64,000 nucleotides of DNA from Hydrogenovibrio kuenenii DSM 12350 (lineage in GTDB: Bacteria; Pseudomonadota; Gammaproteobacteria; Thiomicrospirales; Thiomicrospiraceae), in NCBI RefSeq assembly GCF_000526715.1, contig NZ_JAGP01000001.1, positions 992,001-1,056,000 on the forward strand, in the 5' to 3' direction. Below the pieces are notes generated by a model, which saw only the letters and a program-made list of their open reading frames with translations, had not been told where the DNA came from and searched no databases. A program made the translations under genes and the position numbers. This document shows positions 54,825-58,045 of the stretch, in pieces. Each line of letters begins with the position of its first letter. Positions within the stretch are counted from its first letter, which is position 1.

Positions 54825-56717
54825 ATGCATAATAGTCCGGTAATAAACTTACTTCACCAGTTAGAGCCTTTTTCTAATTTACCTGAACAATCGCTACAAG
54901 AGCTAGCTGCTTCAATGGATGTGGTTTATTTTCCTCAGGGTTCAAAATTCGCACTACAGTTACATGAAAATCCTGAGGAAAATGCATCACTTTATATTTT
55001 GATTAAAGGTCGTATTGCAGAGTTCGATAATGAAGGTCGTCAAACAGCTTTGTATCTTCACCATACGTTCTTTGGCGAGTCGGTTTTATTGAAGAAACTC
55101 AATGAAAGCAACTATGAGGTTAAAGAAGAGGCTATAGCTTATCGTTTGCCAGGGGGTAAGTTTCTGGAATGGGTAAAGATGCCTGAGTTGGCAAACTACT
55201 TCTTTAATTCCATTACGGATAAGCTGGATCAGCTACACAAAAGCCGGCAAATGGCGTCATCAAGTGAAGCCTTGATGGAGTTGGTTGTGGATGCTCCAGT
55301 AAAACCGCTTAATATCCTAAGTGCACAAGCAACGGTTGCATCGGCCATAAGTCAGATGGCAACAACGCAAGTGGATGCTTGTTTGGTTAAATTGGACAGG
55401 GCATCACACGAAGTCCAAGACGTTATGAGTGAGTATGGCATTTTGACGGCGATGGATTTGTTAAAAGCCATTTCTCATGATCCAAACGTGCTGAATCAAG
55501 CCGTTGATCCATTTGCTCAATCTCCGGTAATAAGTGTTCACCGACATGACTATTTGTTCAACGCATTGCTTAAAATGACTCGCCACTATGTGAATCGTTT
55601 GGTTATTAGAGGTGACAACGAACCCGTTGGCTTTCTTTATCAAAAAGATTTAATGGGGCACTTTGCTACCCAGTCTGGTTTAGGGATGTTGAGCTTAGAA
55701 CAGGTAACAAGTAGAGAAGAAATTGAGCCTGTCTTAAGGCAGGTGGATGATCTGATTACAAATTTAAATGCGCGTGGCGTGAAAACACACTATATCGCCA
55801 AATTGGCAACAGAGGTTTACCGGAAGGTTTTTCAAAAAGTATTTGACTTGCTAGAGCCAGATGCAGTGCTGCAATCAGGGTGTTTTATTGTAATGGGAAG
55901 TGAAGGTCGTGCTGAACAGGTTATGAGAACCGATCAGGACAATGCTTTTATCTTGCCTGAAATGGATGAGCAAACGTTTGAAACACTAAAGCCATTTGCA
56001 GAGCGTTTGACTCAATCCCTTATTGATTTGGGTTTTCCGCGTTGTCCTGGTGAAGTTATGGTCTGCAACCCATTGTGGTTTCAGCCAATTAATAGTTTTA
56101 AGCAACAGCTTAAATCTTGGATGAATACACAAGATGAAACGGGTTTTATGAATGTGTCTATTTTTCTTGATGCCGAAGTTGTGTTTGGTGATGAAGCGCT
56201 TTTAAAAGATTGTAAACAGTTGGTTTCGGACTGGGTAAAAAATTACCCTCAATTTTTAAGGCATTTTGCCAAACCTGTTTTTCAGTTTGAAACACCGGTC
56301 AATTTCTTTGGTCGTTTGGTGTCTGAAAAGCAAGATCAACAAGATCTTTTGGATTTAAAGAAAGGCGGTATTTTTGCCATTGTTCACGGCGTGCGTTGCT
56401 TGGCACTGGAGTTTGGTATTTCCCAAACCAATACTCATTGGCGTATAAAAGCACTAATGGAAAGTGGTTTTTTCTCTGAATCTTTTGGTCATGAATTAGG
56501 GGAAAGTTTGAACTTTTTTAATACGCTACGTTTAGAAAATATGATTGATTTAAAACAATCTGGCGTTAATGCATCTGAATTCGAGTCTAAGCAAAATAAG
56601 ATACAAGTAACGAATTTAACTACGATTCAACAAGATTTATTAAAAGATGCTTTTGATGTGGTTAAGCGGTTTAAGAAAATGCTTAATCACCACTATAAAC
56701 TCGATACTTTGCTTTAA
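54825..56717 (+). CDS. cNMP-binding/CBS/DUF294 nucleotidyltransferase-like signalling protein
   Basis: 630 residues. Cyclic-nucleotide-binding-like domain (about 10-125; YILIKGRIAEFDNEGR, HHTFFGESVLL), two CBS motifs (about 165-280), DUF294 nucleotidyltransferase-like domain (about 310-450) with the GSEGR and RTDQDNAFIL motif (MGSEGRAEQVMRTDQDNA), and a helical DUF294_C (about 480-620). Such proteins are regularly linked to acs-actP and to a DnaQ-like exonuclease, as here, and are thought to sense nucleotides; the function is not settled. Confidence 0.9.
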   Translation: MHNSPVINLLHQLEPFSNLPEQSLQELAASMDVVYFPQGSKFALQLHENPEENASLYILIKGRIAEFDNEGRQTALYLHHTFFGESVLLKKLNESNYEVKEEAIAYRLPGGKFLEWVKMPELANYFFNSITDKLDQLHKSRQMASSSEALMELVVDAPVKPLNILSAQATVASAISQMATTQVDACLVKLDRASHEVQDVMSEYGILTAMDLLKAISHDPNVLNQAVDPFAQSPVISVHRHDYLFNALLKMTRHYVNRLVIRGDNEPVGFLYQKDLMGHFATQSGLGMLSLEQVTSREEIEPVLRQVDDLITNLNARGVKTHYIAKLATEVYRKVFQKVFDLLEPDAVLQSGCFIVMGSEGRAEQVMRTDQDNAFILPEMDEQTFETLKPFAERLTQSLIDLGFPRCPGEVMVCNPLWFQPINSFKQQLKSWMNTQDETGFMNVSIFLDAEVVFGDEALLKDCKQLVSDWVKNYPQFLRHFAKPVFQFETPVNFFGRLVSEKQDQQDLLDLKKGGIFAIVHGVRCLALEFGISQTNTHWRIKALMESGFFSESFGHELGESLNFFNTLRLENMIDLKQSGVNASEFESKQNKIQVTNLTTIQQDLLKDAFDVVKRFKKMLNHHYKLDTLL

Positions 56718-56726
56718 GGGGACCCT

Positions 56727-57371
56727 GTGGTTGGGTTAAAAAAATTTAAGCATGCAATTTTTCATATTTGGCAGAAATATTGGCTCAAAGAGCCTGAGTA
56801 TCAATTTTTGTTTGAGCAGGCACCAGAAGATGAGTATGTGTGTTTTGACTGCGAAACAACTGGATTAAACCCCAAAAAAGACAAGATATTAACGCTCTCA
56901 GCAGTCAGGATAAAAGGCAATCAAATCCTTGCAGGACAATCTTTGGATATTACAGTAAGGCATGCCGGTCAAATTCATGAGAACAGTATAAAAGTACACC
57001 AGTTGAGATATTTAGATTTAGTAGAAGGTATTGGTGAAAAAGAAGCTATACGGCAATTTTTATACTTTATTGGCAGTCGTCCGCTAGTGGGGTACTACCT
57101 AGAGTTTGATGTTGAACTTGTTAATAGAGTGCTTAAACCTTGGTTGAATATAGTGCTTCCAAACCTTCAGGTAGAAGTGTCTGAGCTTTTTTATGATTAT
57201 AAGTTGAAGTCGAAATATCAGTCTGTTTACCTGCCTAATATAGACTTGTCGTTTGAGCACATTCTTGAACAATTGGCGCTACCCAATCTTGGACAGCATA
57301 ACGCTCGGAATGATGCGATGATGACGGCATTGGTTTTCCTTAAATTGAAATCTTTGATGAATGTCAGATAG
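56727..57371 (+). CDS. DnaQ-like 3'-5' exonuclease
   Basis: 214 residues from GTG 56727 (GGGGA site). DEDDh exonuclease: Exo I CFDCETTGLNPKKDKILTLSAV, Exo II GYYLEFDVELVNRVL, Exo III HNARNDAMMTALVFLKL. The His-Asn-x-x-Asp arrangement fits DEDDh. It follows the DUF294 gene by 9 bases, a pairing common in proteobacteria with acetate modules; the biological role is unclear. It is shorter than PolC/DnaQ epsilon and lacks a clamp-binding tail. Confidence 0.9.
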   Translation: MVGLKKFKHAIFHIWQKYWLKEPEYQFLFEQAPEDEYVCFDCETTGLNPKKDKILTLSAVRIKGNQILAGQSLDITVRHAGQIHENSIKVHQLRYLDLVEGIGEKEAIRQFLYFIGSRPLVGYYLEFDVELVNRVLKPWLNIVLPNLQVEVSELFYDYKLKSKYQSVYLPNIDLSFEHILEQLALPNLGQHNARNDAMMTALVFLKLKSLMNVR

Positions 57372-57398: not shown

Positions 57399-57427
57399 TT
57401 GAAAATTAGCGGTAAAGTCCTTATAAT
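57399..57427 (+). promoter_or_regulatory. strong sigma-70 promoter of the rimP leader
   Basis: TTGAAA (57399-57404), 17-base spacer, TATAAT (57422-57427): the best promoter match in the window. Transcription should begin near 57434. Confidence 0.8.
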
Positions 57428-57433
57428 GACGCC

Positions 57434-57570
57434 AGTTTTTTAAATCTGTTTAACAGAAGATATTCAGAAACTAGGGTTTGGTCACGATGACTTTTTGTCC
57501 GATTTATCGGCAAGCTTCTGAATACTCTATGCTGATACCATTTAAAAACCCCGTTTTACGGGGTTTTTTG
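57434..57570 (+). ncRNA. structured leader RNA or attenuator upstream of rimP
   Basis: About 137 nt between a strong promoter and an intrinsic terminator. An outer stem TATTCAGAA (57461-57469) with TTCTGAATA (57516-57524) encloses two small hairpins, GTCA-CGA-TGAC (57481-57491) and CCGA-TTTA-TCGG (57499-57510), giving a three-way-junction shape. A terminator follows (ACCCCG/CGGGGT stem, 57544-57569, with T-run). The rimP start is 23 bases beyond, so the RNA may be an attenuating leader of rimP-nusA-infB or a separate small RNA. E. coli has a tRNA (metY) and a known leader at this place; the structure here is not a tRNA. Confidence 0.6.
57544..57569 (+). terminator. intrinsic terminator within the rimP leader
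   Basis: AAAAACCCCG, loop, CGGGGTTTTTT; lies upstream of rimP rather than after a gene. Confidence 0.92.
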
Positions 57571-57592
57571 TTTTTAGAAATAAGGAAAGTGC

Positions 57593-58045
57593 GTGACATT
57601 AGAGGATAAAATCGAGCAGTTGCTAAAACCCACTGTTGAATCAATGGGATTTGACCTTTGGGGGTGTGAATATTTACCTGCGGGAAAACACTCTACCCTA
57701 AGAGTTTATATTGAAAAGCCAGAAGGCGTCACTGTTAGCGACTGTGGTTCTGTAAGCCGTCAGGCAAGCGCGATTTTAGATGTCGAAGATCCTATTTCCA
57801 ATGCGTATATGCTGGAAGTTTCTTCCCCTGGTATGGATCGTCCGTTAATGAGACCTGAACAATTTAAAGCGTATGAAAATGCTTTGGTTCAGGTTAGAAC
57901 GGCAGTTGACGTTATGGGGCGTAAGCGTTTTAAGGGCAAGATGGTTCAAGTCAGTGAAGAAGGTATTGAAGTGGAAGTCGATAATGAAATTTATCCGATT
58001 GCCTTCAGCATGATAGAAAAAGCCAATGTCGTTCCAGAGTTTTAA
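57593..58045 (+). CDS. rimP: ribosome maturation factor RimP
   Basis: 150 residues from GTG 57593 (AAGGA site 7 bases before). Two-domain fold: LKPTVESMGFDLWGCEYL, LRVYIEKPEGVTVSDCGSVS, DPISNAYMLEVSSPGMDRPL. Needed for 30S maturation. First gene of rimP-nusA-infB. Confidence 0.97.
   Translation: MTLEDKIEQLLKPTVESMGFDLWGCEYLPAGKHSTLRVYIEKPEGVTVSDCGSVSRQASAILDVEDPISNAYMLEVSSPGMDRPLMRPEQFKAYENALVQVRTAVDVMGRKRFKGKMVQVSEEGIEVEVDNEIYPIAFSMIEKANVVPEF

Follow-up and report, generated by a model that had tools for sequence, protein, structure and literature searches.

A lineage-specific rimP leader variant with a candidate antiterminator helix at the 5' end of the transcript

In Hydrogenovibrio kuenenii DSM 12350, the region between a 3'-5' exonuclease gene (ending at 57371) and rimP (GTG start at 57593) contains a promoter-leader-terminator unit at 57399 to 57592. 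On the sequence comparisons described here, this is a rimP leader of a variant form specific to its lineage, and it has at its 5' end a candidate antiterminator helix (P1) that lies outside the Rfam model RF01770. Coordinates refer to the window, the whole stretch of 64,000 nucleotides that was analysed (contig NZ_JAGP01000001.1, positions 992,001 to 1,056,000). Conservation of the leader structure was well supported, and the unit is likely to be a transcription attenuator. Our preferred reading, which we consider reasonably probable, is attenuation of rimP-nusA-infB with P1 as the antiterminator and with negative feedback by NusA.

Results

The features of the unit and of the adjoining gene, all on the forward strand, were located as follows.

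57399..57427, + strand: predicted sigma-70 promoter (TTGAAA, 17-nt spacer, TATAAT), 11/12 consensus match, position relative to the terminator conserved in relatives
57434..57445, + strand: predicted transcription start and conserved 5' element AGUUUUUUAAAU; 57437-57445 is the 5' strand of P1
57458..57528, + strand: P2 region, outer stem 57458-57469/57516-57528 around hairpins 57480-57492 and 57494-57514, from the fold, family-wide covariation and alignment with two sister species
57540..57548, + strand: 3' strand of P1, AUUUAAAAA; its A-tract (57544-57548) doubles as the 5' side of the lower terminator stem
57544..57569, + strand: intrinsic terminator AAAAACCCCGU-UUU-ACGGGGUUUUUU, core common to RF01770
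57581..57588, + strand: probable Shine-Dalgarno sequence of rimP, AAGGAAAG, from the sequence
57593..58045, + strand: rimP, GTG start, first gene of rimP-nusA-infB-rbfA-truB

A preliminary description of this region had proposed a near-consensus promoter, a leader of about 137 nt able to fold into a 9-bp outer stem around two hairpins, a strong terminator just before rimP and an operon encoding NusA and IF-2, and all four were recovered in the present analysis. The genes nusA, infB, rbfA and truB were confirmed downstream of rimP in that order. Sigma-70-like sites are common by chance (5 were found, compared with 4.8 expected in shuffled sequences), so that the evidence for the promoter is its conservation; a TTGACA/TATAAT-like promoter was present 65 to 121 nt upstream of the same terminator in nearly all relatives. 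Transcription was predicted to start at 57434, about 7 nt past the -10 box. Folding of the leader (57434 to 57575) with RNAfold gave a minimum free energy (MFE) of -35.9 kcal/mol and a z score of -3.66, with an outer stem of 9 bp plus AGA/TCT at 57461-57469/57516-57524 that encloses the hairpins at 57480-57492 and 57494-57514. The terminator (57544 to 57568) has an 11-bp stem and a U tract, is near-invariant in relatives and ends 24 nt before the GTG codon at 57593. The z score was only -1.11 once the terminator was left out of the fold. Single-sequence energy alone is therefore no proof of the inner structure, and it is the comparative evidence that supplies it. No tRNA gene precedes rimP in the window, unlike in E. 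coli. Upstream of the exonuclease gene, 54825 to 56714 encodes a large protein without a good NCBIfam match and with only a weak one to PrdR.

The genome of the window and 93 relatives were searched. Loci containing rimP were gathered from the order, which is represented by a single family in this collection (63 genomes, 62 of them with rimP), and 59 distinct rimP leaders were extracted from this family. In most leaders the predicted start AG(A)TTTTTTAAA is followed by 6 to 8 nt, the hairpin P2 and (A)TTTT. The terminator AAAAACCCCG-N4-CGGGGTTTTTT was near-invariant across the leaders and is directly followed by GTTATTTGAA in most of them. The upstream gene varies by species (exonuclease, acetyl-CoA synthetase and others), and promoter, leader and terminator are retained before rimP; because the upstream gene differs, the unit is assigned to rimP. 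A covariance model (R1), built from 26 leaders with that of the window excluded, gave the window leader (57432 to 57579) as its top match in the window genome (54.1 bits, E = 3.1e-6) and recovered 51 of the 56 rimP loci searched. Among 369 genomes of the class, matches of R1 adjacent to rimP were found only in this family and the other matches were not beside rimP, under strict filters that may miss weak matches. U6A3 was also considered as a genome-wide promoter motif; the 10 copies of AGWTTTTTTAAA found elsewhere in the genome were mostly inside open reading frames, and none was taken as a sister leader.

Helix P1, which the preliminary description had missed, is formed in the window by pairing of 57437-57445 (UUUUUAAAU) with 57540-57548 and is A-U rich and weak. 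Its 5' strand belongs to the U6A3 element, which takes up the initial ~12 nt of the transcript as predicted, and its partner is the A-tract just before CCCCG. Across the family, matched 5' and 3' elements paired better than permuted ones (mean of -4.40 versus -3.44, sd 0.18; 0 of 5,000 permutations), as they did in 17 representatives (0 of 5,000) and in 8 divergent ones (2 of 5,000), figures that are inflated by the relatedness of the species. Two control segments, one of 14 nt lying farther upstream and one of 20 nt following the terminator, gave no excess of pairing over permutation. The post-terminator/ribosome-binding region, considered as an alternative partner of the 5' element, showed no excess over permutation.

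A stronger argument for P1 than the permutations comes from the C/G exchanges, whose positions differ between g3 and g6. In several lineages a terminator A-tract containing a G was accompanied by a matching C in the 5' element. The compensatory variants were UUCUUUU/AAAAGAA (L105/L106 and L111), UUUUUCUGA/UUAGAGAA (L113, L120 and L126) and UUUUUCAA/UUGAGAA (L119, L122 and L123). In seven leaders (L111 and six of g6), P1 had a predicted probability of 0.61-0.93 with the native 5' element and of 0.02-0.19 once the common one was put in its place, with a smaller contrast in the C/G variant L074 (0.89 with its own element versus 0.65 with the common one).

For P2, all 10 pairs were changed on both sides in the R1 alignment, and the covariation score was 0.439, compared with 0.146 for shuffled and at most 0.127 for slid alignments, an effect size that is an upper estimate as this alignment was fitted to the structure. 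P2 was also present in single folds. With a plain, unfitted MAFFT alignment, RNAalifold detected no more than the terminator and a portion of P2, because the arms are misaligned in genus g1. The check for covariation upstream of rimP that the preliminary description had suggested was thus positive, strongly for P2 and through compensatory changes for P1. Sequence and size of P2 are highly variable, and the structure, with a preferred base of UUAAG/CUUAA and a 3'-side bulge, is kept in nearly all P1-bearing leaders. The window and the two relatives closest to it (L002 and L003) have an enlarged, branched P2 (a 9- to 12-bp stem with two inner hairpins), and a C-G to U-A exchange in the outer stem was read from the alignment of these three.

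P1 and the lower stem of the terminator are mutually exclusive because both use 57544-57548. The balance between them was examined by folding, with energies that ignore cotranscriptional kinetics. When transcripts were cut before the 3' arm of the terminator, the probability of P1 exceeded 0.5 in 45 of 54 leaders, including that of the window, whose cut transcript holds P1 in its MFE structure; P1 was not predicted in a few cut leaders (for example, 0.10 in L008 and 0.01 in L144). In full-length transcripts, the lower terminator stem (A-tract/U-tract) exceeded 0.5 in 54 of 54. Of the competing full-length states of the window leader, the one with the complete terminator had an energy of -35.9 and the one that combines P1 with the terminator core an energy of -33.0. 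As P1 covaries, forms in the fold before the 3' arm of the terminator emerges and excludes the lower stem, it is a candidate antiterminator, and we infer from these folds that it may compete in the cell. The unit combines a leader terminator with a conserved and mutually exclusive alternative helix, the general hallmarks of a transcription attenuator.

Other arrangements were observed within the family. Genus g2 (L127 to L130) has minimal rimP leaders in which a CCCCG..CGGGG terminator lies 17 to 20 nt after the -10 box, without P1 or P2. In genus g7 (L112, L115, L118 and L121), the terminator is retained with a GC-rich upstream sequence that has possible hairpins and no U6 element; P1 and P2 are absent here as well. 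As both genera keep the terminator without P1 or P2, it can serve without the switch. In L125 (G037), a tRNA-Ser gene (2097-2187, - strand) is immediately upstream of the rimP terminator, an arrangement reminiscent of E. coli, where the metY tRNA precedes rimP; what is left of the leader retains a short UUUUUCU..AGAGAA hairpin and lacks P2. A single family holds several grades of one attenuator: the terminator alone (g2), the terminator with other upstream sequence (g7), P1 with a simple P2 (most leaders) and P1 with a branched P2 (the clade of the window).

Discussion

The comparison of leaders suggests the following mechanism. In the nascent leader, as the comparison shows, P1 can form around P2, and it excludes the A-U lower half of the terminator. 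P1 would form first and would serve as the antiterminator. The CCCCG/CGGGG core would nucleate at the U tract and, on capture of the A-tract from P1, transcription would terminate ~137 nt from the start; where the A-tract is not captured, RNA polymerase would proceed into rimP. NusA, the product of the second gene, would favour the finished terminator hairpin, as extrapolated from other bacteria, such that ample NusA would lower, and scarce NusA raise, expression of its own operon.

The sequence itself gives no hint of NusA, whose role as the best candidate for the signal, which is plausible, is drawn by analogy. Feedback by NusA on its own operon is reported for E. coli (cited in PMC2965389; PMC6511841), nusA expression in B. 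subtilis is attenuated through NusA-stimulated termination (PMC12288461) and, in S. agalactiae, a short rimP-leader RNA has been seen and NusA feedback proposed (PMC4448216). The preliminary description had envisaged an attenuator responding to NusA, to ribosome assembly or to a ligand. The attenuator was supported by conservation, by the covariation of P2 and by the exclusive helix; the ligand was not. A small-molecule riboswitch at this leader appears unlikely, since there is no conserved large unpaired core or binding pocket and P2 is free in both sequence and size.

The same attenuator could respond to a signal other than NusA, such as a ribosome assembly factor or ribosomal protein on P2 or another factor that shifts the balance of P1 and terminator. 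We regard this as possible and rather unlikely. The retention of P2, with its preferred base and bulge, in nearly all P1-bearing leaders favours it, as does the fact that the operon also encodes RimP, IF-2 and RbfA, but P2 varies widely, being even branched in the clade of the window, and the feedback described for this operon in other bacteria is that of NusA. We are similarly doubtful of a bolder variant, namely, that the family has acquired a separate class of riboregulator on the rimP terminator. Here the extreme 5' end of the transcript would be the antiterminator strand and would read the exact start, P2 may bind an assembly factor and the input to the operon would be other than NusA.

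It is improbable that the hairpin merely ends transcription of the upstream gene, or acts as a partial terminator that is constitutive, without a regulatory role. The upstream stop codon (57371) is only 28 nt from the promoter with no other terminator within this interval, and genus g2 has a promoter and terminator only, both in favour of this reading. However, the terminator is always downstream of the rimP promoter and is kept with different upstream genes, and P1 and P2 covary. Still less probable is that the 5' U tract senses UTP through reiterative transcription, as at codBA and upp of E. coli, with the terminator being a separate element. The predicted start AG(A)UUUUUU resembles the promoters of these E. 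coli genes, and the U tract is unbroken in the window and in most species, but it is broken in L074/L105 and in L111 (AUUCUUUUU), where the pairing partner shifts to AAAAGAA, and g6 has UUUUUC together with GAGAA. Moreover, slippage does not involve the AAA that follows U6, yet this AAA pairs in P1. Finally, although a 5'-terminal helix can protect RNA, a structure that mainly stabilises the mRNA, or a released leader acting in trans as a small RNA, is very hard to credit, as the partner of P1 is the terminator A-tract and P2 is quick to change in sequence, in contrast to the region through which a small RNA pairs.

The rimP leader has been described as the most ubiquitous transcription attenuator (PMC2965389), and here it carries a covarying alternative helix of known position. 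With P1, compensatory mutations become a direct test of whether NusA feeds back on the nusA-infB operon.

Kinship with the known rimP leaders, which the preliminary description had left open while suggesting a search with the Rfam model, could be settled. No Rfam family reached its gathering score in the window, and at E values up to 10 only weak matches, mostly driven by the terminator, were obtained. RF01770 scored 23.6 bits on the window leader, below its cut-off of 47, and aligned over model positions 34 to 97 only, which is the terminator part. Among the 94 genomes, and using only matches at rimP since many low ones were chance terminators, one relative (G049) exceeded the cut-off at 49.3 bits and several others reached 40 to 46 at the same place. 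The terminator core is thus shared, while the upstream structure is different.

In Firmicutes and other bacteria (S. agalactiae; ylxS of B. subtilis), the general rimP leader likewise has a terminator between promoter and rimP, but its arms are in the opposite orientation (GGGc..gCCC) and no antiterminator is visible (PMC2965389). For the gammaproteobacterial form, the same paper (Naville and Gautheret 2010) does describe a potential antiterminator, with none visible outside some Gammaproteobacteria. The metY-nusA-infB leader of E. coli (102 bits on RF01770) also places terminators before rimP, with reported NusA feedback, and shares AA(A/G)CCCCG..CGGGGUUUUUUGUUAU(C/U)UGA with the leaders of the family; its first element is the metY tRNA gene, its terminators number two, and it shows neither U6A3 at the corresponding place nor such a 5'-end helix. 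RF01770, the gammaproteobacterial rimP leader (PMC2965389), occupies the same position before rimP-nusA-infB and has the same CCCCG..CGGGG core, with UUUUUUGUUAU(C/U)UGA next in most relatives. After the U tract, the tail is GUUUUUAGAA in the window, where terminator and U tract are present, and GUUAUUUGAA in most relatives (the RF01770 type, GUUAU(C/U)UGA). This stretch (57569 to 57580 in the window) is kept from E. coli to most of the family, though it lies beyond the terminator. RF01770 differs in an unpaired AGGGUCCAG-like stretch, absent from the window leader, in the second terminator (GGGC..GCCC) that it shares with E. coli and that is absent at 57569-57592 of the window, and in having neither P1 nor P2. 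From these sequences, we judge the terminator core to be homologous to that of RF01770 and P1 and P2 to be an addition in this family.
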